Part shown: piece by piece, positions 36,959-55,394 of the stretch
Layout: each line of letters starts with the position of its first letter
How positions within the stretch are numbered: the stretch's first letter is position 1
DNA from: an uncultured Eubacteriales bacterium
GTDB taxonomy: Bacteria > Bacillota > Clostridia > Oscillospirales > Oscillospiraceae
Reading direction: 5' to 3'
DNA: 58,839 bases
Assembly: GCA_900319275.1 (NCBI GenBank)
Contig: ONNS01000002.1
Coordinates: forward strand, 1-58,839
The notes under the pieces: generated by a model
The model's input: the letters and a program-made list of their open reading frames with translations, nothing else
The model's database searches: none
What the model was told of the DNA's origin: nothing
Translations under genes and position numbers: made by a program

Positions 36959-37034
36959 CCGGGTGTAGCGCAGTTGGTAGCGCGCTTGAATGGGGTTCAA
37001 GAGGCCGCTAGTTCGAATCTAGTCACTCGGACCA
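36959..37034 (+). tRNA. tRNA-Pro (anticodon GGG)
   Basis: The 76-nt cloverleaf has acceptor CCGGGTG/CACTCGG with discriminator A and an encoded CCA. The D arm contains GTTGGTAG. The anticodon stem CTTGA/TCAAG surrounds loop ATGGGGT, giving anticodon GGG. The T arm contains GTTCGAATC. It has its own promoter and terminator. No duplicated 3' tRNA fragment was found further along, so I see no proof that it served as an integration site. Confidence 0.92.
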
Positions 37035-37072: not shown

Positions 37073-37339
37073 CGTAACTTTTTTGCTATAATTACAGGGC
37101 TGCTTATCCCGGGATGCGGAATAAAAGCGGAACTGGATTACAGAAAAATTTACTATTCTGCAAATAGTAGTACGGACAAAAAACGAAATAGTAAATATTT
37201 TTGGGTGAGGACAGGCAACCCCGATGCTGACCTCACTGTTGCCCCCCGATGGGAGAGGGGGAGCCCCATACATCATCGGTCGCTTTGGCTTCTCCGTTGA
37301 TATTCGACGAAGAAGAGTAAATGACGAAATTGATTACTA

Positions 37340-37401
37340 CGCCGGATTTTCTCGACTGTCGGGAAAATCCGGCTTGTATTTTGTCTGAACTGTGGTATAC
37401 T
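37340..37401 (+). promoter_or_regulatory. Hairpin and promoter before the AAA ATPase gene
   Basis: A GCCGGATTTTC/GGAAAATCCGGC hairpin (37341-37373) is followed directly by TTGTAT-16-TATACT (37374-37401), 55 bases before the ATG at 37456. In 37073-37339 there is otherwise only a short hairpin (TACTATT..AATAGTA, near 37149) and no gene. Confidence 0.65.
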
Positions 37402-37455
37402 ATGGATGATGAAAACGAATTCGCGAGAATGTCGAGAAAATTCGGAGGAAAGAAC

Positions 37456-38772
37456 ATGCCGGAAATCAAACGCCAGCTGTATGTCGATCGCCTGCTGTCC
37501 AAGCGCTGGAACGGCAAGGTCAAGATCATCACAGGCATTCGCCGCTGCGGGAAGAGCTATCTGCTCAGCCATCTGTTCAAGGATCGGCTGCTTATAGAGG
37601 GCGTGCCCGCCGATCACATTCTGGAGATCGCGCTGGACCGTAAGGAGCACGCCGACCTGCGCGACCCGAACCGCCTTTACGCCTGGGTGCTGGAGCATCT
37701 GACGGACGAAGCGCCCACTTATCTCTTCATTGATGAGATCCAGCTCTCCTATAAGGTGCGGCGCGAGGGCGTGGATGAGAGTCGGATCGCCCCGGAGGAT
37801 CGGGAGCTTGCCTATATCAGCTTCTACGACGTTCTCAATGACCTGCTGACGCGGCCCAATCTGGATATCTACGTGACCGGCTCCAATTCGCGGATGCTGT
37901 CCAAAGATATTGCCACCAATTTCCGGGACCGCGGCACGGAACTGCGTATGTTCCCGCTGAGCTTTGCGGAATACTACGCCATGTCCGGGCTGGAAAAAGC
38001 CGACGCCTGGGCGGAGTATGTGATCTGGGGCGGCATGCCGCTGGCGGTGCTGGAAAAGGACGAGGCCGAGCGGGCCCGGTATCTGTCCGGCCTGTTTGAA
38101 AAGGTTTATGTGGCCGACGTGGTGGAGCGCTACGGTGTGGAGGACGGTTATCTGGAAAGCCTAATCGATGTGGTGGCCTCGGCAGTTGGCTCGCTGACCA
38201 ACCCCTCAAAGCTTGCCAACACGCTCAACTCGGTCAACCACGCAGGAACCACGGACAAAACCGTGAAAAAGTATCTGGACGCACTGGAGGACGCTTTCAT
38301 CTTTGAAAAGGCGCGCCGCTACGACGTCAAGGGCAAGACCTATCTGGATTCTCCCGTCAAGTACTATGCCACAGACGTTGGCCTGCGCAACGCGCGGCTC
38401 GGCTTTCGGCAGATCGAGGAGACGCACCTGATGGAGAACATCCTATACAACGAGCTGATCCGCCGCGGCTATGCCGTGGATGTAGGCACGGTGCGTTATG
38501 CCGAGTCCAAAGACGGGAAGAAAACCGAAAAGCAGCATGAGATCGACTTCGTGGTGAACCTGGGTACAAAGAAGGTATATATCCAGTCCGCGTTCCGGAT
38601 CGACGACGAGGAAAAACGCCGCCAGGAGATCCTGCCGCTATTAAAGAGCGGGGATTTCTTCAAAAAAATTGTTGTCACCTCCGGCAGTGCCCGACCGCAC
38701 ATGGATGACAACGGGATCCAGTATGTGGGCATTATCCCGTTCCTGCTGGATGAAAACAGCATCGAGTGGTGA
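37456..38772 (+). CDS. AAA-type ATPase with C-terminal DUF4143 domain
   Basis: This 438-aa protein of the large prokaryotic ATPase_14/DUF4143 family has Walker A GIRRCGKS (27-34), Walker B TYLFIDEIQ, and sensor VTGSNSRMLSKD. A winged-helix-like segment (NPSKLANTLN, TVKKYLDALEDAFIFEKARR) precedes a C-terminal PD-(D/E)XK-like DUF4143 part with EIDFVVNLGTKKVYIQ. Cellular roles of the family are poorly known; a defence, toxin-like or mobile-element link is often inferred. The start is ATG 37456 after GGAGG; the frame stays open to 37321 but has no site. It stands alone, with a strong terminator after it. Confidence 0.88.
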   Translation: MPEIKRQLYVDRLLSKRWNGKVKIITGIRRCGKSYLLSHLFKDRLLIEGVPADHILEIALDRKEHADLRDPNRLYAWVLEHLTDEAPTYLFIDEIQLSYKVRREGVDESRIAPEDRELAYISFYDVLNDLLTRPNLDIYVTGSNSRMLSKDIATNFRDRGTELRMFPLSFAEYYAMSGLEKADAWAEYVIWGGMPLAVLEKDEAERARYLSGLFEKVYVADVVERYGVEDGYLESLIDVVASAVGSLTNPSKLANTLNSVNHAGTTDKTVKKYLDALEDAFIFEKARRYDVKGKTYLDSPVKYYATDVGLRNARLGFRQIEETHLMENILYNELIRRGYAVDVGTVRYAESKDGKKTEKQHEIDFVVNLGTKKVYIQSAFRIDDEEKRRQEILPLLKSGDFFKKIVVTSGSARPHMDDNGIQYVGIIPFLLDENSIEW

Positions 38773-38924: not shown

Positions 38925-41840
38925 ATGGCGGAGCTTGATATAATGGAGAAGCTATCAAAGCTGGGATGGGGCAGCGAGGCCGCAGATGCCGTTCGTTTTT
39001 TTTATTCCATTGTCCGGGTGCGGTATATTCGGGGGATCAATGAAGCTAATTATCCCGACCGTCCTTGGTGGGCGTGGTATGGGGTTTTCCTTGAAAACGA
39101 CCAGACATCCCAGAAATATTACGGTGCCCTCCCGCTGCTGGAATCGGACTGGCAGAAGGACATGTTCGAAGCACTCGCAAATGAGCTGCCTGAGTCGCTG
39201 GCGGAGTATATGCAAATGGCACTGCCGGGGAGAGTGAAGAACGAAAAGTTTTATGATGTCCTCAGCCAGCAATACGATAGAGTTACCTACCAATGCTACT
39301 GTACTTATCTTCTCCTCAGCATTCCTCCGGAGATCCCCTTGGATGATGCCTATAAGCAGTATCTGGATCTGTTCGAAGGAAAAGGCGATCCTTTAGGAGA
39401 AGGCGTTTTTCAGAAGCTTTTCTGCCTGATGAATTGGCGCGAAATCCGGGATGACAGCAGCGTTAAAGCAGCTGCAAAAGAAGCCAACGAACTGCTGACG
39501 AGGATGCTTACCAGCAATCAGGAGAAATGCAGGATCATGGATGAGATTATCCGCCACACGGATACACTGAAACAAAAATCCGTGAATGCGCCGGCAGCCT
39601 ATCTATCCAAGCTCCTGTACGATGACAGTAAGGTGGCAAGGGGAGTAGCCGCAACAAGAGAGATCAATAAGCTGATCAAACTGGTACCTAAATCACTCAC
39701 ATTTATGGAATTCTTGACTGCGATGATGAGTGCAAACAGCAAAAGCGAGAATCTGGCAGAACTGGGCTTTCTGCTTCCGTGGCTCAAATCCCATTGGTGC
39801 GAGGACGAAGAGATCCCGGTTTGTCTGGTAAATGCCATGCCGACCTTTATGGAGGTCTGGGGAATGCGAGCCTGTGACAGCGCCACGGTTCCCTACGACA
39901 CGGCGAAGGCACCGGTCTCGAAGGCTCTGGATGCCACGATCTATGACATGACAGAGCTCGAATCGATTGTATATGCGGACAAGCAGAGAGTGTTGTACTT
40001 TCCGAGGGGCTACAATACAGAAGAGGTTCGGAAGCATCTCCTGGCCCTTTGCAGAGAGAACGCTGTCGTGGTGGCGGTGCTGCCGGATACCTACAAGGCG
40101 CAGACCATATCTATTCCCGGCTATGAGGTTGAGCGCATTGCTATTCTCCCGGAGAAGCTTTATAAAAATGGTCTGGTCAAAAACTTCGTCGTGAAATTGA
40201 TACCGGCGCAGACGGAGCAGCCGATCATGGCCTGTGATGTGAGCATCAAAACGATCGACCGCCGGCACTATCTGGAACCGGAGAGCTGCTGGACCGCGAC
40301 GCAGCTGAAAAAGATGGACTATGCATCCAATCAGACATTGCGGAGGCTATTTTATCAGACGGTCAACAAAAAAGAAGATGCCGTGCCGAGAAATCGGCCC
40401 AAGGCATATGTGTACTCTCCGGAACTGACGCTGTGGTACACAGCAAAGGCAAACAGTGAAGAGGAGAACAGCACATATACCGTCGGCCTATACTTGTGCG
40501 AGGTGCCCAGCGAGGCACAGAAGAAGAGAAACAAATTCCCGCGGGGAAAGAGGATCGACTCCACCAAGACCTGGACTACAAAGGTCACACAGGATCAGAT
40601 CGAGCCCTGGATCGAAAACCGTGGTGTCTTCAAAGAAAACCTGCGCCGGCAGGCGGAAGAGCAGATCGTGCTCTATAGCAATAAGGTAATCAGCTTGAAG
40701 AGTCTCTGGTACTTGCTCTATGACAAGCTGGACAACAGGGAGGAAGAGAAAGAAATGCTGGCGCGTTTTGCTCGGTCCGGGCATGGCGCGGGGCTGATGA
40801 TCGGCCAGGTCGCAGAAGAAGAGATCGAAAGGGCGATCGATGAGGAAAACGAGAATACGGATGAGCTTGTAGCGCTGCTCGACAAATTGTTTGATCTTGC
40901 CCTTCGGCGCAAATGGATTAAAGCCCATCCGTTTGCTCAGCTGCATGCAGCCAGGAGCTTGCAGAAAAAACGGGAGGAGAGCATTAGAAAGCTGGCTAAA
41001 CGCAACTATACGACCGATGAAGAGCTCAAAATCTGGTCGTATTACCAGGAAAACAGCGGGAATATAGGCGCTGTGGGAATGATACTCTGCTTTCTGACAG
41101 GCTTGACGCCCCCGTATGTGGCTGCCCTTACCTGGAGAGATTGGCGGAAAATCACGCATACCGAGCATACGCAGCTGATCATCAACAAGAAACTGAGCCC
41201 GGATGGTTCCATCGTGTGGCAGACGGAGGAAGAAAACTGTCGCCTGATTCCTGTGATGGATCGCCTTACGCATATTTTGAACAACCTGAAAAACCGACAG
41301 GGCACAAATCCGGACGACCGTATCATTAACCTCGAGGAGGGAGCGCTCTCCGCAATCCGCAGGCAGATCCGCGCGGCAGAGAGGTACGCCGGAATTGCAG
41401 CGGATATGATCAGCGTTCCGGACGCCGAAAAGGAGTTGGACCTGAACCGCTATGAGGGGAGCCGAATGAGGTCCAACTTCGAATGGCATTGCTATATGGA
41501 CTGCGGAATGACAGACGCGGAGGTGCATCACCTGCTGCTGCGCGTCATGCCGGATACGCTGTCGAAGAACTATGTGGATTATGGGCATGAGTGTATGCAG
41601 GAGCGAATGGCGGTCAAACTGAATCAGTGGGGGCAGCGGTTTTCGGACAGAACAGCAACGGCATGGAAATCTATGCCCTTGCTGAAAAAGAAGATCTGGC
41701 TCAAGTCTCACAGAGGAGAGACGGAGAGCTATCAGTTATCAGCGCAGATTCACGGACGGTTTGACGTGCTGGCCGACAGCGATCACGACTTTGAGTACCG
41801 ATTGCTGGTGCGGAGTATGGAGGCGGAAAATGGGAACTAA
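38925..41840 (+). CDS. Large protein with degenerate C-terminal tyrosine-recombinase domain
   Basis: I do not recognise a named family for this 971-aa protein. Residues 1-640 are mostly helical with no clear catalytic motif. A segment near 410-450 (AVVVAVLPD, ERIAILPEKLYKNGLVKNF) faintly resembles the C-terminal part of N6-adenine methylases but lacks NPPY. From about 640 (LDKLFDLALRRKWIKAHPFA) there is a core-binding-like helix pair. From about 693 (NYTTDEELKIW) it follows the integrase catalytic fold: FLTGLTPPYVAALTWRDW matches the Arg-I box with the Arg lost, SRMRSNFEWH the second Arg box, and NYVDYG the Tyr region. The start is ATG 38925 after AGGAGG, 54 bases inside the longest frame. 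It overlaps the next recombinase gene by 11 bases, so they form one unit. Confidence 0.7.
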   Translation: MAELDIMEKLSKLGWGSEAADAVRFFYSIVRVRYIRGINEANYPDRPWWAWYGVFLENDQTSQKYYGALPLLESDWQKDMFEALANELPESLAEYMQMALPGRVKNEKFYDVLSQQYDRVTYQCYCTYLLLSIPPEIPLDDAYKQYLDLFEGKGDPLGEGVFQKLFCLMNWREIRDDSSVKAAAKEANELLTRMLTSNQEKCRIMDEIIRHTDTLKQKSVNAPAAYLSKLLYDDSKVARGVAATREINKLIKLVPKSLTFMEFLTAMMSANSKSENLAELGFLLPWLKSHWCEDEEIPVCLVNAMPTFMEVWGMRACDSATVPYDTAKAPVSKALDATIYDMTELESIVYADKQRVLYFPRGYNTEEVRKHLLALCRENAVVVAVLPDTYKAQTISIPGYEVERIAILPEKLYKNGLVKNFVVKLIPAQTEQPIMACDVSIKTIDRRHYLEPESCWTATQLKKMDYASNQTLRRLFYQTVNKKEDAVPRNRPKAYVYSPELTLWYTAKANSEEENSTYTVGLYLCEVPSEAQKKRNKFPRGKRIDSTKTWTTKVTQDQIEPWIENRGVFKENLRRQAEEQIVLYSNKVISLKSLWYLLYDKLDNREEEKEMLARFARSGHGAGLMIGQVAEEEIERAIDEENENTDELVALLDKLFDLALRRKWIKAHPFAQLHAARSLQKKREESIRKLAKRNYTTDEELKIWSYYQENSGNIGAVGMILCFLTGLTPPYVAALTWRDWRKITHTEHTQLIINKKLSPDGSIVWQTEEENCRLIPVMDRLTHILNNLKNRQGTNPDDRIINLEEGALSAIRRQIRAAERYAGIAADMISVPDAEKELDLNRYEGSRMRSNFEWHCYMDCGMTDAEVHHLLLRVMPDTLSKNYVDYGHECMQERMAVKLNQWGQRFSDRTATAWKSMPLLKKKIWLKSHRGETESYQLSAQIHGRFDVLADSDHDFEYRLLVRSMEAENGN

Positions 41841-43281
41841 GCGAAGTGCCAGACAGGATATTTTGCATTTTGACTCCTATGCATCGGAAGTCGGAGGAAA
41901 ACTGACCTTCATCGGTGCGCTGCAGCAATGTCAGAAATTGATCAATAAGCGCTGGAACGCGGACACCAGAAAGACATATTACAAGCATTATGAAGAGCGC
42001 CTGTTTCCGCTGATCCCCGAAAAACCGCTGGAGGAGCTGACAGAAGCAGATTTTGAAGCCGTGATCGAGACAATGAACGAGCAGGCGTTGAAGAACGGCA
42101 ATCCCTATTCTGACAGTCAAATCCGCCACCACAGGCACCTTCTCAGAGTGGTCACGAAAGCCGCAGAACAGGAGGGCATCTGTCCGGATATTCTGTGGGG
42201 CGGCAATTTCCTGGAAGATGAGAGCGACGAGCATGAAGCAAAGATCAAGGTCAAGCCCCGGTCTCTGTCTACCGGAGAGGAGTATCGGATTTGCGAGCGG
42301 GTGCTGCAGAATCCTCAGGAGGAAGGCGAACTGGTCGGGATCGCCATCATGTTTTGTCTGGGAACAAGAAATCAGGAGGCATGTGGTCTGAACTGGGAGA
42401 GCTTTGCCCATCAGCCGGGAGATGACATGGGTTTTCTCAGGGTCATCGCCAGCACAGAACAGGGGAGCAATCGTGTCAAGGCTGGCGGCAAGACCCGAAA
42501 TGCACCGAGAATCCTTCCAGTCACAGGATTGCTGCTCGATCTGCTCGTGAAGAGAAGACAATGGCTGGAGGAAATGAGCGCGGACGGGCTTGTGCTGGAT
42601 CATATGTCCGCCGACAGGATTACCGACATTGCCCGGCTTCCGATCGTCTGCAGAGACACGCAGTATACTGTGCGCGCAGGTGCTGATGATTTGACGCGGA
42701 AAGCCAAGGCACTCTTGAAGGAGATCAATCTGGATGAGGATGTTTTAGAGGAAGCAAATGAGCTGTTGGAACAGCGTTTTGCTCTCTCGTTCGGCGAACG
42801 TGATGTCACGGCCTATTTGTTTCGGCGCAATTTTGCCACTCACATGTCGATACTGGGACTGGATGCGGAGACGATCCATTATCTGATGGGGCATGCGTTT
42901 GAGGATGAGGAGATCACGAAAGCCCGCTATACCAACAATGATATACTGCGTCAGATCGGAGAGCAGATGCGTCAGCGCCCGATCGTCAACCCGAAGATAG
43001 AGACAGAAGCAGAGATCACGCTTTTGCCTAACCAGAGCATCAGCGGAAAGGGACAAGGTCCCCTCGTGTTCCGCATAGAAGCAGGAGAGCGGGGATCGAC
43101 CGTCACAGGATATTTAAAACCGACAGGCGCATCGAAGCTCGGCGTATCTCTGGAATATGAACAGTTCCCGGAAAGTGGAGAGATTATCCTGTCTCCGGAG
43201 CAGTTCTGCACAGAACCGACGGTCAGCGAAAAAGTGACGTACAGAAAAATCTATGGCCGGCGGAGGGACAAGCGCGAATAG
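41830..43281 (+). CDS. Tyrosine recombinase (partner of the 971-aa protein)
   Basis: This 483-aa protein has an N-terminal SAM-like core-binding domain (about 20-130, INKRWNADTRKTYYKHYEER). The catalytic domain shows Arg-I at about 180 in FCLGTRNQEACGLNW, a beta-hairpin Lys in AGGKTRNAPRILPV, box II as AYLFRRNFATH (Tyr replaces the usual His of HxxR; Arg kept, near 333), MGHAF (His near 354) and a candidate nucleophile in ARYTN (Tyr near 366). A C-terminal extension of about 100 residues after the catalytic domain is unusual. The start is ATG 41830 after GGAGGCGG. It is probably the active strand-exchange partner of the upstream degenerate protein. Confidence 0.85.
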   Translation: MGTKRSARQDILHFDSYASEVGGKLTFIGALQQCQKLINKRWNADTRKTYYKHYEERLFPLIPEKPLEELTEADFEAVIETMNEQALKNGNPYSDSQIRHHRHLLRVVTKAAEQEGICPDILWGGNFLEDESDEHEAKIKVKPRSLSTGEEYRICERVLQNPQEEGELVGIAIMFCLGTRNQEACGLNWESFAHQPGDDMGFLRVIASTEQGSNRVKAGGKTRNAPRILPVTGLLLDLLVKRRQWLEEMSADGLVLDHMSADRITDIARLPIVCRDTQYTVRAGADDLTRKAKALLKEINLDEDVLEEANELLEQRFALSFGERDVTAYLFRRNFATHMSILGLDAETIHYLMGHAFEDEEITKARYTNNDILRQIGEQMRQRPIVNPKIETEAEITLLPNQSISGKGQGPLVFRIEAGERGSTVTGYLKPTGASKLGVSLEYEQFPESGEIILSPEQFCTEPTVSEKVTYRKIYGRRRDKRE

Positions 43282-43328: not shown

Positions 43329-43553
43329 TTACTTGTAAATCAGAATTTGATCGATGGGCACCTCAAGGAGGATGCTCAGCGCCAGGAGATTGTCAATACT
43401 GGGCAGCGTCTCACCGCGCTGCCACTTGTAGACAGCGCGCACGTCGGACAGTCCGAGAAACTGGCTTAACTCTTTGACAGAGACGCCCTTTTCTATCCGG
43501 AGGCGACGAATAGTATCACCTGTCGCCTCCATATCAATAACCGGAAAAGTCAT
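43329..43553 (-). CDS. Xre-family HTH regulator
   Basis: This 74-aa single-domain DNA-binding protein begins MTFPVIDMEATGDTIRRLR, has the HTH VSVKELSQFLGLSDVRAVYKW and ends with SIDNLLALSILLEVPIDQIL. The type is common beside integrases in Clostridia. The start is 43553 because its ATG overlaps the TGA of the preceding gene (ATGA). It is the last gene of the minus-strand operon and convergent with the recombinase pair. Confidence 0.88.
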   Translation of the reverse strand: MTFPVIDMEATGDTIRRLRIEKGVSVKELSQFLGLSDVRAVYKWQRGETLPSIDNLLALSILLEVPIDQILIYK

Positions 43554-43870
43554 GCGCATCGTGGACTCAGGAGCCAGGCGCAATATAGTACATACTGCGC
43601 ATTCATGTCCGCGTCATCGTACACATATGCTTTCCCACAGACAACAACGATCCATTTCCGCTCACGCGAGAGATAGCCGCCATCCTGAGCATAGCGCTTG
43701 ATCACGACCTCATAAATTCCGTCCGCATCGATGCAGCAAACAATGCTTTCCCAGCGTGAATTATTGCGGCGGTAACTCTCAACAAAGGAGCGCGCGAGTA
43801 TATAGTCAGGATGGGCGCCGGTGATGCGGGCGATATACGATATCGCCCGTACACCCTTGCGCTGATACAC
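43550..43870 (-). CDS. Conserved-type 106-aa protein of the integrase operon
   Basis: No named family. The sequence RAISYIARITGAHPDYILAR and later ESIVCCIDADGIYEVVIKRY suggest a small alpha/beta protein. The only standard start is GTG 43870, without a good ribosome site. The same frame continues upstream as KITLEWGGNLLILNYR to an ATA at 43916-43914 that overlaps the TAA of the previous gene. An ATG there would give the usual ATAA-type coupling, so the true start may be this ATA, or a mutated start codon. It is translationally coupled to the Xre gene that follows. Confidence 0.7.
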   Translation of the reverse strand: MYQRKGVRAISYIARITGAHPDYILARSFVESYRRNNSRWESIVCCIDADGIYEVVIKRYAQDGGYLSRERKWIVVVCGKAYVYDDADMNAQYVLYCAWLLSPRCA

Positions 43871-43917
43871 GCGGTAGTTGAGGATCAGGAGGTTTCCACC
43901 CCACTCGAGGGTGATCT

Positions 43918-44382
43918 TTATGCGCTCGCCCCCTCACTTACAGCGTAACGGAGGAGAAACTCGTCCTCGGTCACGCCCTCGTACGCAGCAAGAAGCTGCA
44001 GATGCTGGGGCCGTACGCTCTTACTGTCGCATACGCGGCGCGCCCATTCACGTGAAGTGACGCCAAGTCGATCGGCGAGCTGCTGAAGGGACAGGTTTTC
44101 GTCGCGTCGATAGACGGCAATGGGATTGCGTGCGGGTTTAGACTTAGTCCGAGCGTTGGCGTGCCGGTCACCATCCTTAAGGAGTGCCGGATAGTAATCA
44201 TCCAGCAACTCGTCCAGCGTGATGCCGAGCGCATCGGAAAGACGAAGATAGATAGACAAAGCGGTATTGGGCTGGATCTTTTTTTCGAGCGATCGAATGA
44301 CAGGGGCAGAAACCTGGGCCAGCTGACTGAGCTCGCAAATGGCGAGTCTGTTCTTGTTGCGATAGAATCGAAGTCCGTTCAT
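43918..44382 (-). CDS. Protein with two Xre-type HTH domains
   Basis: This 154-aa protein has a first HTH at about 1-62 (LAICELSQLAQVSAPVIRSLEK, then DALGITLDELLDDYY). A basic linker (65-85, ANARTKSKPARNP) leads to a second HTH at about 85-145 (LSLQQLADRLGVTSREWARR, YEGVTEDEFLLRYA). Duplicated HTHs in one chain may bind two half sites or bridge sites. It starts two bases after the stop of the HTH-nuclease gene, with GGGAG as site. Confidence 0.85.
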   Translation of the reverse strand: MNGLRFYRNKNRLAICELSQLAQVSAPVIRSLEKKIQPNTALSIYLRLSDALGITLDELLDDYYPALLKDGDRHANARTKSKPARNPIAVYRRDENLSLQQLADRLGVTSREWARRVCDSKSVRPQHLQLLAAYEGVTEDEFLLRYAVSEGASA

Positions 44383-44384
44383 TA

Positions 44385-45074
44385 TTATTCTCCCTTCGTA
44401 ACGATGAAATCATATGTTTTATATTGAAATTTGCGAAGATCATCCAGCGAATAGATGATCTGCTTGGGCTGCCCGTTGATGTCGTATACGCGGTGCAGCT
44501 CGTAGTTCAGGCCGCTATCACGGCAGTAATCCATGAATGCCTTTTCATTGACAGTCATAAAGAACGGTGCATCTGCATCATCGGACGTCGTCTTGACTTC
44601 AATGTATAAAAGTTTGCCAGACTGTGTGAAGGAGAGCAGGTCGAAGCCATAGCTCGGCTCGAGCGCGTAGTGCGGATCGACTGCATTTTCGTAGATCGTT
44701 CCGGCGAGCTTCTTCCTCTCGGCGCGAAGTACAAACTCCTCACCGCGCAGGCCATTATCTACCCGCCTCATCTGCTTGCGTCGGATCGCACGCTTGGCAG
44801 AAGCTTTGACGACAGCGGGACCTCGCAGGCTGGCAATAGCCAGGTCATACCGGTCGTTGATGATCGCGTTCAAGGAGACGTGGAAATAAGATGCGATTTT
44901 CTGGATTTTGTAAAGCTTTATGGAAAACTGTTTCTTCTCCAGCCGGCAAACATCCATTACGGACAGTCCGCACTTTTTTGCGAGCTTTGCCTGCGTGAGC
45001 CCGTAGTGTAAACGCAGGAAAGTGAGTACGTTATACGGCGCTGTGGTAAGGCCGTTTTTCTTACGTCTCGACAT
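44385..45074 (-). CDS. HTH domain fused to a DUF3883-like PD-(D/E)XK nuclease domain
   Basis: The N-terminal Xre HTH of this 229-aa protein (about 15-75: LRLHYGLTQAKLAKKCGLSV, DVCRLEK) is followed by a basic linker (KRAIRRKQMRR). The C-terminal domain has GLRGEEFVLRAERKKLAG, then GFDLLSFTQSGKLLYIEVKT. The D-x(n)-E-V-K arrangement is the restriction-endonuclease-like active site of DUF3883-type domains. It could be a nuclease or a nicked-DNA-binding regulator; catalysis is not proved. The first 14 bases overlap the integrase gene, so the two are made together. Confidence 0.8.
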   Translation of the reverse strand: MSRRKKNGLTTAPYNVLTFLRLHYGLTQAKLAKKCGLSVMDVCRLEKKQFSIKLYKIQKIASYFHVSLNAIINDRYDLAIASLRGPAVVKASAKRAIRRKQMRRVDNGLRGEEFVLRAERKKLAGTIYENAVDPHYALEPSYGFDLLSFTQSGKLLYIEVKTTSDDADAPFFMTVNEKAFMDYCRDSGLNYELHRVYDINGQPKQIIYSLDDLRKFQYKTYDFIVTKGE

Positions 45075-46185
45075 TATACGATTCCTCCATCAAACCAAGA
45101 TCGTTTACTGCGCGAGAGAAAGTCTCCATGTCCGTGTGCAGATAGATGCCAGTGGTTTCGGCTCGTGCGTGTCCCATAAGACGTGCGATGATCTGCAGAG
45201 GAACACCTTTCTCATCAAGCTGAGTGGCGTATGTGTGGCGGCAGCAGTGCGGGGACAGACTACGGACACCGTTTACTTTTTTCAGCGCAGTGTAGTAACG
45301 CCGCCGGAAAGAGCCAACTCCGTAGTAGGGATTATTGCCGGGCTGGTAAATGCGATCCACGCCGCCATGCTTCCGAAGAAAGAGGAAAGAGTCGCGATAG
45401 GCAAGAGGAACGGGGATAATGCGGTTGCTCAAAACGCTTTTGGTGACATCAAGATGCGGTTTGCCGTCAACCATCTCGATTGCCTTGTTGACGTCTACCT
45501 GCGAGCCGTTCGCGGAGATATCGTCCTGGGTCAGGGCAATCAGCTCCTGAACGCGCATACCGGTGCCAAGCATCGCTCTGATGCCGTGACCGATCAGATC
45601 GTTCGGAAGATCACGGTTGAGGTTCTGAACTTCGGCATCGGTGAAGGCGTCCTTCCGAACTTCGTCCTTCTTGCCAAGCTCACGGCGTTTACGGATTTTC
45701 TTGGCATTTAGAGCGGGATTGCGGAGAATCAGACCATTGTGTTCGGCGTCTGTAAAGATCTGGATCAGCATCGCGCGGCACTTGCGGAGCTGAGAGGAGG
45801 AATAGCCCTGTGCAACGATCGAATCCAGAAAGCTGTTGATGTGGAGGGGAAGGATCGTGCAGATGGGGGTATTGCCATACTGCTTCTTAAGAAAAGCCAG
45901 CGTGTACTTATACCCGGAATAGGTAGAGGGCTGAACCTGACTGCGATAGCTGGCATACCACATGTCTGCAAACTCTCCGAAGGTCAAATTCTTGTCCAGA
46001 CGGATGTTCGACTCCTTCAGCCGTTGGGCTTCGCGAATCTTCTCCTGCACCTCTTTCTTGCTCTTGCCGGAAAAGCGAACAATGTCGCGCTTCCCCTCAT
46101 CGGTATAACCGATCATCAATTCTCCACGCCAGGTGCCGTTTGCGGTCTTGCGGATGCAGCCGTCGCCATTAGAACTCTTTTTCAT
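45061..46185 (-). CDS. int: Phage/transposon integrase (tyrosine recombinase, Tn916 Int-like)
   Basis: This 374-aa protein has an N-terminal AP2-like arm-binding domain (GDGCIRKTANGTWRGEL). A SAM-like core-binding domain (about 75-165) precedes a complete catalytic domain: Arg in GTGMRVQELIAL, HCCRHTYATQL, LMGHARAETT, and nucleophile Tyr in TTGIYLHTD. The start is ATG 46185 after AGGGGGTGACC; an ATG six codons earlier is possible. Unlike the recombinase pair at 38925-43281, all catalytic residues are present. No conjugation or phage genes lie next to it. Confidence 0.93.
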   Translation of the reverse strand: MKKSSNGDGCIRKTANGTWRGELMIGYTDEGKRDIVRFSGKSKKEVQEKIREAQRLKESNIRLDKNLTFGEFADMWYASYRSQVQPSTYSGYKYTLAFLKKQYGNTPICTILPLHINSFLDSIVAQGYSSSQLRKCRAMLIQIFTDAEHNGLILRNPALNAKKIRKRRELGKKDEVRKDAFTDAEVQNLNRDLPNDLIGHGIRAMLGTGMRVQELIALTQDDISANGSQVDVNKAIEMVDGKPHLDVTKSVLSNRIIPVPLAYRDSFLFLRKHGGVDRIYQPGNNPYYGVGSFRRRYYTALKKVNGVRSLSPHCCRHTYATQLDEKGVPLQIIARLMGHARAETTGIYLHTDMETFSRAVNDLGLMEESYNVET

Positions 46186-46199
46186 TTTGGTCACCCCCT

Positions 46200-46406
46200 T
46201 CAATATGTCAGCCGAGCGGGCACAACGGTCGGCCTTTGTACCCGCATCGGGAACAACTCGTGGGGAGTCCGGCTCACACCGCTGAAGTTGCTGACGGGAA
46301 AGCGCTTGCTATGGGGGAGCGCGTTCGGCAGGGACTTGCAGGTGTTAAGGCGTTTGCTTGCTCCTCTGACTGTGGGGGACTTGCGTGGGGTGGTTTTGTT
46401 TTTCAT
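46200..46406 (-). CDS. Small basic protein upstream of the integrase
   Basis: This 68-aa protein is rich in Arg, Lys, Pro and Ser (MKNKTTPRKSPTVRGASKRL) with no known domain. AGGAG lies nine bases before the ATG, and the TGA falls just before the ribosome site of the integrase, so it is coupled to int. It may be an excisionase-like or leader protein, but no similarity supports this. It could also be a spurious frame with a good site. Confidence 0.5.
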   Translation of the reverse strand: MKNKTTPRKSPTVRGASKRLNTCKSLPNALPHSKRFPVSNFSGVSRTPHELFPMRVQRPTVVPARLTY

Positions 46407-48782: not shown

Positions 48783-50093
48783 ATGCACGATTTTATCAAT
48801 GACCTACGTTTTGCCGGAATTAATAAGTTCAGTTCTAAAGTCTGGCTGTCTTCCCCTACAATGCACGGAGATGAGCAGCGGTGGGTTGATGAAGCCATCC
48901 AGACAAACTGGGTCTCTACTGTTGGCGCGAACATCGATGCAGTGGAAAAGGCAATGGCAGAGTACATCGGTGTGAAATACGCGGTTGGTCTGTCCTGTGG
49001 CACGGCGTCACTGCATCTTGCCACCAAGCTGGCGGGAGAAAAACTCTATGGTCAGGCTCGCCCTAACCAGGGTACGTTGCAGGGTCATCGCGTGTTTGCT
49101 TCAGATTGCACTTTTGATGCATCGATTAATCCAATCGCCTACGAAGATGGCGATGCGGTTTTCATTGATACTGAGTATGACACCTGGAACATGAGCCCGG
49201 AAGCTCTGGAAAAGGCGTTTGAGTTTTATCCTGACGTACGCCTTGTTGTGATTGCTCATCTCTATGGTACGCCTGGCAAGATGGAAGAGTTGAAGGCAAT
49301 CTGTGATAAACACGGTGCATTGATCGTGGAGGATGCGGCGGAGAGCCTTGGCGCGAGATATTTGCTTAACGGTGAATGGGTAGAAACAGGCACACTTGGC
49401 AATTATAACGCAATCAGTTTCAACGGCAATAAAATCATCACAGGAAGTGCCGGAGGACTTTTCCTGACCAATTCCAAAGAGGATGCGGACAAGGTCCGAA
49501 AGTGGAGTACACAGAGCCGCGAGGCTGCGCCCTGGTACCAGCATGAGGAGATTGGATATAACTATCGCATGAGCAATATCATTGCCGGTGTGATAAGGGG
49601 ACAGATTCCGTACCTGGACGAACACATCGCTCAAAAGAAAGCCATCTGGGAGAGGTACGAAAAGGGCTTGGCGGATCTGCCTGTGAAGATGAATCCCTGG
49701 GATCGGCAGAAGAGCGAACCTAACTTTTGGCTGAGCTGCTGCATCATCGACGAGGATGCTATGGCTCCGATGGTGCGTGGGGAACAGGATTACTTATGGA
49801 AGCACGAGAGCGGTAAGAGCAGCTCGCAGGAGATTCTTGAAGCGATTGCTGCTTTCAACGCCGAGGGCAGACCGATCTGGAAGCCCATGCATATGCAGCC
49901 GATCTATCGTGTCAGTCCTTTCGTGACGGTGGAAGGAAACGGAAGAGGTAGGAGCAATGCGTACATCGCTGGTTCTGGCGTTGATGTTGGTGCCGACATC
50001 TTCCGTCGTGGATTGTGCTTACCGTCTGATAATAAGATGACTCCTGAACAGCAGGACGTTGTGATTGACATCATTCATAGGTGTTTTTTGTAA
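48783..50093 (+). CDS. DegT/DnrJ/EryC1-family sugar aminotransferase
   Basis: This 436-aa PLP enzyme aminates a nucleotide-linked keto sugar. It has SSPTMHGDEQRWVDEAI, GLSCGTASLHLATKL, EDAAESLGARY, and the PLP-lysine in SFNGNKIITGSAGG (about 214-227). An insertion of about 15 residues after LAGEKLYG and a longer C-terminal part are typical of the PglE/LegC-like branch. GAGGAG precedes the ATG. The operon has no 4,6-dehydratase to make its keto-sugar substrate, so this could come from the capE-type pathway or from elsewhere. Confidence 0.9.
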   Translation: MHDFINDLRFAGINKFSSKVWLSSPTMHGDEQRWVDEAIQTNWVSTVGANIDAVEKAMAEYIGVKYAVGLSCGTASLHLATKLAGEKLYGQARPNQGTLQGHRVFASDCTFDASINPIAYEDGDAVFIDTEYDTWNMSPEALEKAFEFYPDVRLVVIAHLYGTPGKMEELKAICDKHGALIVEDAAESLGARYLLNGEWVETGTLGNYNAISFNGNKIITGSAGGLFLTNSKEDADKVRKWSTQSREAAPWYQHEEIGYNYRMSNIIAGVIRGQIPYLDEHIAQKKAIWERYEKGLADLPVKMNPWDRQKSEPNFWLSCCIIDEDAMAPMVRGEQDYLWKHESGKSSSQEILEAIAAFNAEGRPIWKPMHMQPIYRVSPFVTVEGNGRGRSNAYIAGSGVDVGADIFRRGLCLPSDNKMTPEQQDVVIDIIHRCFL

Positions 50094-50188
50094 ATCGGTT
50101 GGACATCAATCAGGGTTGTAGATAGGAAGATGCCGCATCTGCCGGACATCAATCAGATGCACACATATAAAGCGCGGGGGCGCATGAA

Positions 50189-50410
50189 ATGTCTTTTGAA
50201 GATTTATTAGATCAGGCGTGTAAATCGGCTCGTCTTCCAGAGATGGCGAGAATACTACTTCCCAGCACACTGAGCGAAGAGACAAAGAAGCTGGTGCTGA
50301 AGCTAGAGCCTGAGGCATTCGGCGCGATCCTGAAAGCTGCCATAGATCAGATTAACCAAGGTTCAGTTGAAACTGTGGACGCGCTCGTAAGAAAGGCTCT
50401 GCAAGAGTGA
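50189..50410 (+). CDS. Small helical protein of unknown function in the EPS operon
   Basis: This 73-aa, all-helical, cytosolic-looking protein (MSFEDLLDQACKSARLPEMA, LKLEPEAFGAILKAAIDQIN) has no known domain. It lies between the aminotransferase and the initiating sugar transferase, in the same direction, with a GGGGGCG-type weak site. It could be a partner or stabiliser of one of these; there is no direct evidence. Confidence 0.65.
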   Translation: MSFEDLLDQACKSARLPEMARILLPSTLSEETKKLVLKLEPEAFGAILKAAIDQINQGSVETVDALVRKALQE

Positions 50411-50487
50411 AGAAGCGGCTGGTATATGTCACTTCCTTGGTTCCGCTATTGGATTTGGATTATGGAAATTGATAAAGGGGAAGGCTA

Positions 50488-51216
50488 ATGCGTTTAGAGA
50501 GAAAGATGGGTTTCTATGAGAAGTACATAAAACGGCTTCTGGATGTTGTTTGCTCCCTCCTTTTCATAATCGTTTTTTGTTGGCTGTACGCGATCATAGC
50601 ACTGATTGTGAGAATCAAGATGGGAAGCCCAGTGCTGTTTAAACAGCCGAGACCTGGGATCATTAAAAACGGTAAAGAAACAATTATCAATATGTATAAA
50701 TTCCGCTCTATGACAGATAAGCGGGATGAAAATGGAAACCTGCTGCCGGATGATCAGAGACTGCCTAAGTTTGGCGCAATGCTGAGGAGCACATCGCTCG
50801 ATGAACTTCCCGAGGTTTTTTCTATTCTGAAAGGCGATATGAGTGTCATAGGACCACGGCCTCAGCTTGTACGGGATATGGTTTTCATGTCAGATGGGCA
50901 GCGAATGAGGCATACAGCAAAGCCAGGGTTGACAGGGCTCGCACAGGTTAAAGGCCGTAATGCTATTACATGGGAAGAAAAGCTGGAATGGGATCTGAAA
51001 TATATTGAGAAGGTCAGTTTCCTGGGCGATGTGAAGATACTGGTGGAAACAGTATTTGCCGTGTTTAAGAGAAGTGGGATAACAGACGGAGAGAACGCCA
51101 CTGCGCTGGACTATGGGGATGCGCTGTTAAAAACAGGAAAAGTGTCGAAGCCACAGTATGATGCTTTGCAGGCATACGCAAGGGATCTGATAAAAGAACA
51201 TGAAGGACGGAGATAA
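50488..51216 (+). CDS. Initiating sugar-1-phosphate transferase (short, PglC-like)
   Basis: This 242-aa protein has a single N-terminal re-entrant membrane helix (about 14-38) and the full bacterial sugar transferase domain: FKQPRPGI, MYKFRSM, STSLDELPEVFSILKGDMSV, GPRPQLV, and KPGLTGLAQVKGRN. It transfers a sugar-1-phosphate to undecaprenyl phosphate to start the repeat unit. With the aminotransferase, a 4-amino-type or N-acetylated sugar is a likely first residue. The start at 50488 has GGGGAAGG upstream. This intact gene may replace the broken long copy at 3180-4605. Confidence 0.93.
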   Translation: MRLERKMGFYEKYIKRLLDVVCSLLFIIVFCWLYAIIALIVRIKMGSPVLFKQPRPGIIKNGKETIINMYKFRSMTDKRDENGNLLPDDQRLPKFGAMLRSTSLDELPEVFSILKGDMSVIGPRPQLVRDMVFMSDGQRMRHTAKPGLTGLAQVKGRNAITWEEKLEWDLKYIEKVSFLGDVKILVETVFAVFKRSGITDGENATALDYGDALLKTGKVSKPQYDALQAYARDLIKEHEGRR

Positions 51217-52023
51217 GTGGAAAAGTATAGTGTATTGATGTCTCTCTATAAAAAAGAGCATCCAGAGTATCTTCGTCTTGCTCTGGATTCAATGATAAAT
51301 CAGTCAGTAAAGCCTGATGAGATTGTCCTTGTGGAGGATGGGCCTCTTACAGATGAGTTGTATGCAGTTGTGGAGGAGTATAAACCGCACCTCCACATTG
51401 TTATAAATGAGAAGAACCTAGGCCTCGGGTTAGCGCTTAATGAGGGCTTGAAAGCTTGTAAGAACGAGCTGGTGGCTCGTATGGACACGGATGATATCAG
51501 TAAGCCTGATCGCTGTGAAAAACAGCTTAAGCGGTTTGAAGAGAAGCCGGAACTGGCTATTGTTGGTTCTCATATCGATGAGTTCGTGGGTGACCCGAGT
51601 AGTGTGATAAGTCAGCGAAGAGTGCCCACAACATCGGAAGATATTTACAATTATGCAAAGAAGCGTTCTGCCTTTAATCACCCAGCTGTAATGTACCGGA
51701 AGTCTGCAGTTATGGCTGAAGGCGGGTATAGCGATCTCAAGAGAAACCAGGACGTTGACCTGTTCGGCAGAATGCTGTTCAAGGGGTATAAGGCTGAAAA
51801 CATAGATGAAGCTCTATTGTGGTTCAGATCCTCTGATGAATTGGCGGCGAGGAGGAAGTCCTGGGAGAACACTAAGAGCTACATAGCAACGATTAAAAAG
51901 TTCTGGAAGATGGGTTATAGCTCTTTCTCAGATTACGCTATGGTTGCTGTTGCACAGACTGGGATGTTTGTTCTTCCGGCAAAGATGCAGAACTGGGTAT
52001 ATAAAAAGTTTTTGAGGAAATGA
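51217..52023 (+). CDS. Family 2 glycosyltransferase
   Basis: This 268-aa GT-A fold enzyme has YSVLMSLYKKEHPEYL, LVEDGPLTDEL, NLGLGLALNEGL and the metal-binding ARMDTDDI (residues about 88-95). The start is GTG 51217, directly after the previous stop (TAAGTG) and with GGACGGAG as site, so it is coupled. Acceptor and donor unknown. Confidence 0.9.
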   Translation: MEKYSVLMSLYKKEHPEYLRLALDSMINQSVKPDEIVLVEDGPLTDELYAVVEEYKPHLHIVINEKNLGLGLALNEGLKACKNELVARMDTDDISKPDRCEKQLKRFEEKPELAIVGSHIDEFVGDPSSVISQRRVPTTSEDIYNYAKKRSAFNHPAVMYRKSAVMAEGGYSDLKRNQDVDLFGRMLFKGYKAENIDEALLWFRSSDELAARRKSWENTKSYIATIKKFWKMGYSSFSDYAMVAVAQTGMFVLPAKMQNWVYKKFLRK

Positions 52024-52038
52024 CGGAGGCCGAAGGTA

Positions 52039-53322
52039 ATGAGCCTTGAGCAGAAAATAAATTATCAATTAAATAAAATTCCGGGTGTGAAAAAAGTCAT
52101 CAAGCGCGTTTACCAACGTACGATGTATGCCATTTCTCCTAAGATCAAGAGCGAGGGCAACATTGTCCGTATCTCGCCGGATGATCCTTCTCATGAGTAT
52201 TTCTTCGGCTATTATGATAAGTCTCCTTGGGATATCACTGATCGCTATATGCTCTGCATGAGAGCAAATGATACTTGGTCTGATGTAAGTCCAAAGGAGA
52301 AGGCCGATATCCTGCTTATTGATACATCTCTGCCGGAGAGTGATCCAAACAGGGTAAAGAAGATTGCTGAAACAAGCTCGTGGAATGTTCAGCAGTCTTG
52401 TATGCTCCAGTGGCTTGGGCCGGATTTCTCTTCACGGATTCTCTTCAACGATTATCGCGATGGGAAGTACGTTGCGGTTATTAAAGAGATAGAGAGCGGA
52501 AAGGAAAGAGTAATTCCTGCTCCGGTGTACACGGTTTCTGCCGACGGTAGGAATGCCTTGACCTTGGACTTTTCTCGTCTCTACAACCTTCGCCCTGGCT
52601 ACGGCTATTATAACGTGCCAGAAAAGACAAAAGATATTGCTCTGCCGGATGCTACGGCGGTATGGAAGATTGATTTAGAAACCGGAGAGGTTACGGATCT
52701 TCTTACCTATAAGGATTTTGCCATTTTCCAGCCTCGTCCTGAGATGCAGGAAGCTGGGTCTGTCCATAAGGTAAACCATCTGATGCTTAGTCCGACTGGT
52801 AAACGTTGTATGGTTCTTTACCGCTGGTTTGTCGGACAGAGGAAGTATACAAGGCTTGTTACATTTAATAGCTCAGACGGCGGTGACATGTACGTCCTTT
52901 CCGATGACGATATGGTCAGCCATTGCTTCTGGAAAGATGATGAGCACATCTTGGCTTTCGAGAACAAAAAGGACGGTGGTCCCGGATACTACTTCATGAA
53001 GGATAAAACTCAGGAGTATATCCACTGCTGGTCTCAACTAAGTAATGATGGACATCCGAGTTATTCTCCTGATCGTAGCCTTATAGTAACTGATACTTAT
53101 CCAGACCGTGCACGTGTCGCCGAAATCAAACTTATGGATGGCACGAACGAGAAGAAGGCTGATATAAGAGTTATTGCCCGTGTATTTGCTCCATTTAAAT
53201 ATGACAACGATACCCGATGCGATCTGCATCCACGGTGGAATCATAAGGGCGATATGATTTGCTTCGATTCGGTGTTTGAGGGACACAGAGGATTGTACTC
53301 ATTAGCTGTAGGAAAGGATTGA
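52039..53322 (+). CDS. Predicted beta-propeller protein of polysaccharide operons
   Basis: This 427-aa protein has repeated blade-like segments: DPSHEYFFGYYDKSPW, QQSCMLQWLG, VYTVSADGRNAL, HLMLSPTGKRCMVLYRW, HPSYSPDRSLIVTDTYPD and HPRWNHKGDMICFDS. This resembles TolB/oligogalacturonate-lyase-type propellers. No signal peptide, so it is probably cytosolic. Such proteins occur in EPS operons and are often labelled glycosyltransferase without a GT motif; I see none. The function is unknown, with possible binding or modification of a sugar polymer. Confidence 0.72.
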   Translation: MSLEQKINYQLNKIPGVKKVIKRVYQRTMYAISPKIKSEGNIVRISPDDPSHEYFFGYYDKSPWDITDRYMLCMRANDTWSDVSPKEKADILLIDTSLPESDPNRVKKIAETSSWNVQQSCMLQWLGPDFSSRILFNDYRDGKYVAVIKEIESGKERVIPAPVYTVSADGRNALTLDFSRLYNLRPGYGYYNVPEKTKDIALPDATAVWKIDLETGEVTDLLTYKDFAIFQPRPEMQEAGSVHKVNHLMLSPTGKRCMVLYRWFVGQRKYTRLVTFNSSDGGDMYVLSDDDMVSHCFWKDDEHILAFENKKDGGPGYYFMKDKTQEYIHCWSQLSNDGHPSYSPDRSLIVTDTYPDRARVAEIKLMDGTNEKKADIRVIARVFAPFKYDNDTRCDLHPRWNHKGDMICFDSVFEGHRGLYSLAVGKD

Positions 53323-53329
53323 TATTAAG

Positions 53330-54379
53330 ATGATTAAAGCAAGTATTGTGGTGCCTGTATATAATGTTGAAAAATATCTTGAGAAGTGCGTAAACAGCTT
53401 AACTGAACAAACAATAAAAAATATTGAAATAATATTGGTAGATGATGGTAGCAAAGATACTAGCGGAGAGATTTGCGATAAACTAAAAGCTGCTGATAGC
53501 CGAATTAAAGTAATTCACAAGGAAAATCAAGGAGTAAGTGCGGCCAGAAATGATGGATTAAAGGTTGCTCAAGGCGAATGGATTACATTCTGTGATTCTG
53601 ATGATTGGATGGAAAAGGATTTTTGTGAATCACTGATTATGTATGGTGAAAAAAATGATTCAGATGTAGTAGTTGGCGATGTGAGAATTGTAGAGGAACA
53701 CGAGACAAGAGATGTAAAGCTTTTTAGCAAAGAATTTTGCGCATCAACTAAAGAAGAAAAAGACGAGCTAATAAAGACCGTTTTATGTAAATTCTACTCG
53801 CCATATCCTACAGAAATAGGTGTAAGAGAAGGTCTCTTTGGTGGTCCGTGGAACAAAATAGTTAAGAGAAAACTGCTTGTGGATAATAATATAAAATTTG
53901 ATTTAAGAGTACGCGGATTATATGATGACTTAATCTATACTTCATATATATATGCGGCAGCAAGTAAAATAGCTTATAAAAGCCATGTTGTATATAATTA
54001 TAGACAAGTATCTGGGTCAATAACACATAGATACAACAAGAACATTGTCGATACAAATAATAGGATTTTTTATTCGTGGCAAGAGTTCTTTGATAAGTAT
54101 GAGAACGACGGAGAATATCAAAATGCTTTTTATATGAATGTGCTTCGGAGGCTAAAAGGCGCTTTGAATTCATTCTATTTTCACATTGATAATGATAGTT
54201 CAAAAAAAGAAAAAATCGACGGAGTCAAAGCACTTTTAGGGACAGACCCTTATAAAAGAGCAATAGCAAAAGTGGATACTAAAAAAATGCCAAAGTCGTA
54301 TAAAATATTTGTTACTACGCTTAAAATGTTCGGTCCCTTTTCGGCAAGGATACTTTATTTAATGAGAGGCCAAATATAA
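53330..54379 (+). CDS. Family 2 glycosyltransferase
   Basis: This 349-aa GT-A enzyme has ASIVVPVYNVEKYLEKCVNS, LVDDGSKDTSGEICD, GVSAARNDGL, and the DxD-type CDSDDWM. The C-terminal helical part (SITHRYNKNIVDTNNR) is like EpsJ/WfgS-type enzymes. From here to 57795 the DNA is clearly more AT-rich. It overlaps the next gene by one base. Confidence 0.92.
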   Translation: MIKASIVVPVYNVEKYLEKCVNSLTEQTIKNIEIILVDDGSKDTSGEICDKLKAADSRIKVIHKENQGVSAARNDGLKVAQGEWITFCDSDDWMEKDFCESLIMYGEKNDSDVVVGDVRIVEEHETRDVKLFSKEFCASTKEEKDELIKTVLCKFYSPYPTEIGVREGLFGGPWNKIVKRKLLVDNNIKFDLRVRGLYDDLIYTSYIYAAASKIAYKSHVVYNYRQVSGSITHRYNKNIVDTNNRIFYSWQEFFDKYENDGEYQNAFYMNVLRRLKGALNSFYFHIDNDSSKKEKIDGVKALLGTDPYKRAIAKVDTKKMPKSYKIFVTTLKMFGPFSARILYLMRGQI

Positions 54380-55350
54380 TGTTTAATAACGAAGCGCAGC
54401 CATTAGTGTCTGCTGTTATTATTACGCATAATAGGAAAAAACTTGCAGAACGCGCAATTAACAGTGTTCTTGGTCAGACATATTCTAATATAGAATGTAT
54501 TGTGATCGACGATAAATCTGATGATGGCACTCAAGAATATCTGAAATCTAAGTTTACAAATAAAATTATGTATCATTATATACCACCAGATTCGAGTAAG
54601 GGCGGTAATCATGCGAGAAACATTGGCATATCTTTGGCTTCTGGCAATTACATTGCATTCCTGGATGATGATGATATATGGCTAAGACATAAAATAGAAA
54701 GACAAGTACAGGCTTTTTCTCGTAATAGAAAAATAGGCATGGTTTATTGCCTTCGCTTCTTTTGCTACAAGAATAAATATTGCTGGACAGAAGGAAGAGA
54801 TGAAGACACGGTTGGAGATGTTTCAAAGACAGTATTTAAAAAAATAATCACAAGTACGTCGACAATGATGTTTGATATAGATGCAATTAGAAATATTGGA
54901 GGATTTGACGAGAATCTCTCCTGTTGGCAAGAAACAGAACTGATGATGCGTTTTTGTCAGAATTATAAGATTGACTGTGTTGACGAACAATTAATCCTTT
55001 ATACTGTTGATATAACAGATCCGGAGCGACTTTCTAATAAATTTGATAACTTTGAAAAGTCAATTAACTACATTGAGAATAAATACTCAAAGCTCATTAA
55101 AGGTTTCTCGGATGATGAAAATAAAGACTGGATCTTTATGAAATATAAAGATGCTATATCAAGAGCAGGTTCTAAGGTCCTAATGCGTGAGTACTATGAA
55201 AGAGCTTATGCTATTAAACCAAGCAAAGGACTAAAAATTAAAAAGATATTAAATTACAAACCTACATCAAAAATCGCATTGAAAATTCGGATGTGCCTGT
55301 CTCTTGCTGGCTTAAATGGTCATTTCGTATTAGATAGTATGAATGAATAA
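54379..55350 (+). CDS. Family 2 glycosyltransferase
   Basis: This 323-aa GT-A enzyme has VSAVIITHNRKKLAERAINS, CIVIDDKSDDGTQEYL, NHARNIGISLASGNYIAFLD (about 78-97) and then DDDIW, and WQETELMMRF. It starts at the stop of the previous gene (TAATG). Donor unknown. Confidence 0.9.
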   Translation: MFNNEAQPLVSAVIITHNRKKLAERAINSVLGQTYSNIECIVIDDKSDDGTQEYLKSKFTNKIMYHYIPPDSSKGGNHARNIGISLASGNYIAFLDDDDIWLRHKIERQVQAFSRNRKIGMVYCLRFFCYKNKYCWTEGRDEDTVGDVSKTVFKKIITSTSTMMFDIDAIRNIGGFDENLSCWQETELMMRFCQNYKIDCVDEQLILYTVDITDPERLSNKFDNFEKSINYIENKYSKLIKGFSDDENKDWIFMKYKDAISRAGSKVLMREYYERAYAIKPSKGLKIKKILNYKPTSKIALKIRMCLSLAGLNGHFVLDSMNE

Positions 55351-55394
55351 CTCCTTAGTTTGGATTAATAGTTCTCATGGAGAAAGATGCTTTC

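Follow-up and report, generated by a model that had tools for sequence, protein, structure and literature searches.

Tyrosine recombinases are described by a catalytic pentad together with a tyrosine nucleophile. Shared active sites are known to us only between identical subunits, and the SSV1 integrase reportedly has a subunit-shared active site. In the Flp recombinase the active site is shared between subunits, the tyrosine of one being donated to the Arg/Lys/His pocket of its neighbor (excerpts of PMC4381057 and PMC8371274). Here we describe a pair of genes in a stretch of 58,839 nucleotides (the window) from an uncultured Eubacteriales bacterium of the Oscillospiraceae (assembly GCA_900319275.1, contig ONNS01000002.1). 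The genes encode P0001 (971 aa), which we call L, and P0002 (483 aa), which we call S; family members of each are called L-type and S-type. A letter L followed by a number, such as L127, is the label of a fetched genome stretch and is distinct from protein L, and all coordinates are those of the window unless such a locus label is given. The gene for L (38925..41840, +) and the gene for S (41830..43281, +) overlap by 11 bases (41830..41840, +). Re-examination of the open reading frames found both to be intact and on the same strand, in exact agreement with the coordinates, lengths, and overlap given in a first-pass annotation of this DNA. Based on the conservation of residues in the two families, we consider it probable that L and S together form one tyrosine recombinase, a heteromer whose active site is shared out between the two polypeptides, with the tyrosine of L acting in trans in the pocket of S.

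Catalytic residues of the two proteins

The L- and S-type proteins were aligned with 15 ordinary integrases that served as controls (13 from the loci of our set and two from L098), and in 15/15 of these Arg-I, Glu, Lys, the HxxR and GH motifs, and Tyr are kept. The L family comprised 22 aligned proteins, the truncated and frameshifted L of L056 being left out of all L counts. Thr728 of L (codon 41106..41108, +) occupies the Arg-I position, at which Arg is found in 0/22 L proteins, and the first-pass annotation was therefore right that Arg-I is gone from the large protein. Lys and His-II are likewise found in 0/22 and His-III in 1/22 (L091). Tyr883 of L (codon 41571..41573, +) aligns with the catalytic Tyr of the ordinary integrases, and Tyr is present in this column in 22/22 L proteins, making it the sole invariant column among the 248 aligned. 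The earlier description of L as a catalytically degenerate partner thus holds for the pocket but not for the protein as a whole, since all 22 aligned L proteins keep the nucleophilic Tyr that most S proteins lack.

The S family shows the complementary pattern. P0002 has an Arg-I/Glu/Lys/Arg-II/His-III pocket followed by a C-terminal extension; its residues are Arg180, Lys221, Tyr329-x-x-Arg332, and His355, with a Tyr at position 367, as expected from the earlier view that the small protein keeps Arg-I and a candidate Tyr and has Tyr for the His of box II. Arg180 and Glu183 are present in 25/25 readable S proteins, and Lys221, Arg227, Tyr329 (codon 42814..42816, +, the His-II position), Arg332, Gly354, and His355 in 26/26. 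Together with Thr46 (22/22 readable) these are the only invariant columns among 373. Position 367 (codon 42928..42930, +), in the nucleophile region, is by comparison variable, being Phe in 12, Tyr in 8, Leu in 3, and Pro, Lys, and Thr in one each of the 26 proteins. This position was picked by spacing, because extra residues after His-III prevent a clean alignment with the Tyr column of the controls; at the strict control column, which is unreliable for S, Tyr is found in 0/26. The full pentad (Arg-Lys-His-Arg-His/Trp) and Tyr were accordingly not found on one chain, with Arg-I lacking from 22/22 L proteins and Tyr at 367 from 18/26 S proteins, although the S of the window has it. Of the sequences in this set, 21 S and 18 L had gone into the broad profiles, and those outside profile building agree with these patterns, both for L (5/5: L102, L104, L128, L055, L057) and for S (5/5: L102, L104, L125, L126, L128, Arg-I being unreadable in L126).

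Fold and domain organization

P0002 matched Phage_integrase in Pfam (E 2.6e-5, below the gathering score), PHROG 1 integrase in PHROGs (E 8e-20), and only Xer-type and integron models in NCBIfam. Its AlphaFold model has a mean predicted local distance difference test score (pLDDT) of 68.5, with ten-residue means of 50–93 across residues 151–390, and Foldseek aligned the model with Tn1549 Int, XerA, XerH, and Cre (best E 3.7e-6, Tn1549 Int; template modeling (TM) score approximately 0.25–0.33 by query length). For P0001 no family match was obtained from Pfam, NCBIfam, or PADLOC at E 1 or from PHROGs at E 0.01. Its AlphaFold model is weak, with a mean pLDDT of 54 and ten-residue means of 72–91 across residues 701–820, and the structures that it matched in Foldseek were integrases, with lambda Int the best (E 4e-4, 433 columns, TM score 0.12 by query length). 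L also aligns with integrases around the Arg-I and Tyr motifs. Judged from these predicted models, the weaker being that of L, both proteins belong to the tyrosine-recombinase fold and have the integrase catalytic fold, which bears out the integrase-like fold first assigned to them.

L can be divided into residues 1–485, of a kind not recognized; residues of approximately 490–690, which are perhaps an integrase-like N-terminal/core-binding region; and residues of approximately 695–910, which make up the degenerate recombinase domain. The assignment of 490–690 is suggested by its predicted secondary structure, beta and helical, and by the length of the lambda Int match; when this region was compared by hhalign between L proteins of the two clades described below, clade A against clade B, the probability was 6%. 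The first-pass annotation had proposed a 640-residue N-terminal domain without a known match. The N-terminal part indeed has no family match, but its wholly unrecognized portion is probably nearer 485 residues, if 490–690 is integrase-like. Residues 1–485 of P0001 showed no homology to the N-termini of other L proteins (best blastp E 7.1), and partial relatedness was found among the L N-termini of Aristaeella, L050, L088, L102, and L104. Genome G004, of the same genus, has a 124-aa relic that corresponds to the N-terminus of L of the window, with the rest of the protein absent (L016 3917–4291, −; 47% identical over 5–114).

The 11-base overlap suggests translational coupling of L and S. The fixed stoichiometry originally drawn from it goes further than the overlap can prove. 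The gene downstream of S in the window is on the opposite strand.

Distribution, pairing, and co-diversification of the family

The pair belongs to a family named by no library model. A search with P0002 led to a pair on a plasmid of Aristaeella lactis, and P0003, a distant L partner in the plasmid collection, was reached only by way of P0002; another pair was found in a genome of the same genus as the window. Such proteins are easily missed, because P0001 matches no family model and the two Aristaeella genes are both annotated as hypothetical proteins. Profile searches gave matches of at least 70 bits in at least 6/394 genomes of the order and at least 11/300 genomes of the family, and, in a second family, in at least 4/87 genomes, all of at least 166 bits. 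The 70-bit cut was our own choice, and these counts are lower bounds because L018, L097, and L099 are true S-type loci that score below it and because most other matches of approximately 35–65 bits in the order and family scans were not fetched. Named genomes, when scanned, identified some of these as Oscillibacter valericigenes, Pseudoflavonifractor phocaeensis, and a Ruminococcaceae metagenome-assembled genome, and contributed two further metagenome-assembled genomes, of a Lachnospiraceae and a Spirochaetales bacterium. Among 348 genomes sampled from the phylum, the window was the sole clear match at E 1e-12, the others (48–56 bits) being taken as ordinary integrases by score alone. No close relatives of P0001 were found in phages, plasmids, or viral contigs, and none of P0002 in phages; viral scans with the S alignments gave 13 and 62 pattern matches and no relatives.

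Loci were fetched by S-type matches, not by L, and were classed as S-type when their score against the broad S profile was at least 180 bits, the lowest being L126 (180) and L128 (184). L095 (70 bits), L096 (32 bits), and L098 were also fetched and were classed as ordinary; L098 carries a tandem of two ordinary tyrosine recombinases followed by what appears by eye to be an AAA ATPase-like gene (6335–8726). L100, L101, L103, and L105 duplicate L088, L089, L050, and L051 and were counted once. At 23 of the 26 S-type loci so assembled an L gene adjoins the S gene on the same strand, and the two-protein reading of the first-pass annotation, along with the co-occurrence on which it was to be checked, is thereby supported. 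Two gene orders were found, L then S in clade A, which includes the window, and S then L in clade B. In 17/22 listed pairs the two genes share up to 74 bases (the starts being uncertain) or lie no more than 5 bases apart; the exceptions are the pairs of L053 (167) and L054 (39) and those of L055, L056, and L057, which are frameshifted.

The distances among S proteins and among L proteins co-vary, with a Mantel r of 0.87 for 19 pairs (0/10,000 permutations) and of 0.86 for the 12 pairs within clade A (0/10,000 permutations). The test was performed without L055, L056, and L057, and L128 was found after it. In a joint tree S forms one clade (support 0.91), and S and L stand together apart from the controls, to which long branches may contribute. 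These relationships fit one duplication followed by a division of labor between S and L.

Extra regions appear, from the sequences, to have moved between the partners across the family. A long N-terminus is found in the L of the window, Aristaeella, L050, L088, L102, and L104, and a long C-terminus in the S of L052, L053, and L054. The C-terminus of the L052 protein (8529–11234) matches the DNA-wrapping C-terminal beta-propeller of DNA gyrase A (E 4e-10); the same match is weak and below the cut-off in L053 (5791–8364; E 4e-4) and was not found in L054.

Genomic setting of the pair

The pair lies in an element beside a tRNA-Pro gene (ggg; 36959..37034, +), with a presumed attachment core at 37114..37133 (+) that is identical at 20/20 bases in two related elements at the same tRNA. 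Downstream of the pair is a block (43329..46203, −) in which two HTH genes and one HTH-NOV_C gene accompany an ordinary integrase (45061–46203). This block recurs in L127 and L128, both of the same genus, as 66–72% identical DNA beside the same tRNA-Pro and the identical core, and the L127 integrase is 75% identical to that of the window. Between core and block L127 has no pair, L128 has a clade-B pair, and the window has an AAA_14-DUF4143 gene and its clade-A pair. Because the same element occurs at the same tRNA-Pro without a pair in L127 and with a different pair in L128, the pair has the appearance of exchangeable cargo carried at the attachment-site end and is apparently dispensable for integration of this element.

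The AAA_14-DUF4143 ATPase gene (37321–38772, +) occupies the attachment-proximal slot and matches the PADLOC candidate PDC-S01 (E 8e-110). The gene with HTH fused to NOV_C (44385–45074, −) matches the candidate PDC-S36 (E 1e-16), and a gene resembling it was seen in L018; this assignment, like gene names such as guaA and the labels of neighbors given without a family search, was made by eye. No convincing second copy of the tRNA end or attachment core was found at the far end of the window's element, and its other end was not located; an Rfam scan returned tRNA only. Apparent surface-polysaccharide genes, also assigned by eye, flank the element region on both sides (5126–9877 and 48783–58837).

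Elsewhere the pairs are often near ordinary integrases, and in L102 and L091 they have a guaA-like gene on one side and an ordinary integrase on the other. Between the L gene and the guaA-like gene of L091 (4827–5025) are five copies close to TCCTGTGATTTAGGG, mostly at 34-base spacing, which adjoin TTTGACCGCATTTTGACCGCAAAA or a near copy of it and resemble arm- and core-type integrase sites. Three copies close to TCCTGTGATTTAGGG, again adjoining TTTGACCGCATTTTGACCGCAAAA or a near copy, are present in L057 (10273–10440), and a core resembling that of L091 is present in L102 at approximately 7296. No second copy of the attachment-like core beside the guaA-like gene of L102 and L091 was found in the fetched stretch.

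A model for the pair and its alternatives

Since Phe should be tolerated in place of a purely structural Tyr, and catalytic residues should not persist in a pocket that is dead, the Tyr of L may be read as entering the pocket of S. S would bind and activate the scissile phosphate by way of Arg180, Lys221, Tyr329 (for His-II), Arg332, and His355. L, which would have the same fold after an ancient duplication and have lost its pocket, would supply Tyr883 in trans, as occurs between Flp subunits, within a physical and enzymatically active complex of the two proteins. On balance we lean towards an obligate two-subunit recombinase that arose by duplication and partition, with the nucleophile in L and the phosphate-activating pocket in S. 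A mixed tetramer in which only the S pockets are live would have two active sites, so that one strand pair would be nicked or exchanged by design, and the reaction could be switched through the supply of one subunit. The junction would be left for replication or host resolvases, and other factors would be required for a second exchange. Integron recombination, which the abstract of PMC4792948 describes as asymmetric and resolved by replication, offers a precedent. If the model is true, evolution can split an active site so that one gene encodes the pocket and another the nucleophile; strand-selective, subunit-gated recombination would become testable, and a controllable split recombinase might be possible.

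The target of such a reaction may be the cargo slot, for cargo exchange, or invading DNA, for defense, and the model makes no choice between them. A role as an anti-element or anti-phage module, either nicking or trapping invading DNA or using L to poison the integrase tetramers of foreign elements, is possible although doubtful, and it is compatible with the split active site. The exchangeable position of the pair next to the attachment site is in keeping with this role, as are some of the neighbors in a check of ten proteins from six loci, hand-picked by eye. These match Wadjet JetC2/JetD2 approximately 1.2 kb away at L088; a type I restriction enzyme 0.13 kb away at L097, together with Orf5 (DUF262-like by our labeling) at the same locus; a type I methyltransferase at 5.5 kb in L102; and candidate PDC-M62A/B with PtuA/PtuB similarity at 4.3 kb in L128. 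The L054 neighbor, however, had no match, and those of L104 matched only RecD-like and IetA-like ATPases. Nor did PADLOC point to the pair itself, with no match for P0001 at E 1, a chance-level match of P0002 to Cas6f (E 0.03), and none for eight further family proteins at E 0.01. Poisoning, moreover, would not require conserved catalytic residues.

Several observations weigh against a divided active site. The window's own S has Tyr at 367 and so could be complete alone, and in L055, L057, and L091 the S Tyr at 367 has the canonical spacing from His-III. Tyr329, being invariant in S, could by sequence be a displaced nucleophile. The pocket of L is not fully erased everywhere, because Arg-II is present in 8/22 L proteins, including that of the window, and the structural Glu in 10/22. 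The AlphaFold models are of modest quality and of single chains only, and Tyr883 lies within 878–883, a stretch with pLDDT below 50. Support for L as a monophyletic group in the joint tree is weak (0.46). No L gene was found at L051 (truncated and decayed), L125 (another open reading frame and then the contig end), or L126 (which begins at a contig end). The L genes of L055, L056, and L057 carry frameshifts, and a substrate site for the pair was not found.

In an alternative explanation S would be the sole catalyst, using its own Tyr367 or a displaced Tyr329, with L a dead DNA-binding or architectural partner, as has been proposed for Tfp of the strand-biased elements. Tyr at 367 occurs in 8/26 S proteins, that of the window among them, Tyr329 in 26/26, and incomplete partners with a recombinase fold have been described, namely Tfp without RHRY (PMC10214605) and GinC without the first Arg (PMC5385486), both as given in excerpts. 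We nonetheless judge this explanation unlikely. If L were a dead partner, it would not be obvious why its 22 divergent members should share a single invariant residue and why this should be the catalytic Tyr, and position 367 of S is Phe in 12/26 and non-aromatic in 6/26. As for a displaced nucleophile, Tyr at His-II is already found in recombinases that have the normal Tyr, those of the pNOB8 type with R..YxxR (PMC8371274, in excerpt).

That the pair is an integrase or transposase moving its host element would agree with its recombinase fold and with the existence of multi-recombinase elements (Tn554, RIT, GInt, strand-biased elements). This is very improbable, because L127 carries this element, with the identical 20-base core, beside the same tRNA-Pro but lacks a pair, and a different-clade pair is found there in L128. 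The pair-less copy, an indirect argument from one genome, speaks strongly against the pair as the own integrase of the window's element and contradicts, in that sense, the new transposition system entertained at first pass. Finally, that the genes are decaying, functionless remnants of ordinary recombinases is scarcely credible in spite of the broken members L051, L055, L056, and L057 and the relic in G004, because most pairs are full-length and open and the S pocket and L Tyr are strictly kept at mostly 16–31% identity to those of the window, and we rejected a reading as pseudogenes.

Comparison with known systems

Tn554 (TnpA/TnpB/TnpC) and related tandems resemble the pair in having two adjacent recombinases, one with an N-terminal extension of more than 400 aa. 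As described in excerpts of PMC3414803, a potential catalytic motif is found in both partners of these tandems, which often include a third, TnpC-like gene, whereas L lacks Arg-I, and by this description the pair stands apart from the Tn554 tandems. The RIT trios share overlapping recombinase genes with the pair; they consist of three genes, however, and all three of their families have a possible catalytic motif (PMC3414803, in excerpt), and the two-gene pair is likewise set apart from them by description. In GInt (ginABCD) and the strand-biased elements (intA-tfp-intB, srap), recombinases are co-expressed with a protein of the same fold that lacks catalytic residues, much as L accompanies S. 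The operons of those systems, as given in excerpts, have two full-motif recombinases plus one incomplete and a small protein, and they move their own element; our pair is of two genes, has no complete third operon member, and is seemingly dispensable, and by these descriptions it stands apart from both groups. On the requirement for movement, the pair-less L127 is one genome and argues against it indirectly.

A complementary split was mentioned in none of the excerpted descriptions of the Tn554 tandems, GInt, and strand-biased elements (PMC3414803, PMC5385486, PMC10214605). In our searches of an open-licence library, no title or abstract described a recombinase whose Tyr and pocket are encoded by separate genes, and no paper on the Gamma-mobile-trio was found. 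GmtZ of that trio, which has a model in NCBIfam, was not matched there by P0001 (none at E 1) or by P0002 (only Xer and integron models).

For S taken singly, the pNOB8-type archaeal integrases are comparable in having Tyr for His-II (R..YxxR; excerpts of PMC8371274). They differ in being archaeal and in having their own Tyr, and the likeness to S is at the level of fold and motif. A close parallel to the proposed trans attack is found in the subunit-shared sites of Flp and, reportedly, of the SSV1 integrase. There the subunits are identical and each has every residue, whereas here the pocket and the Tyr are on different gene products.

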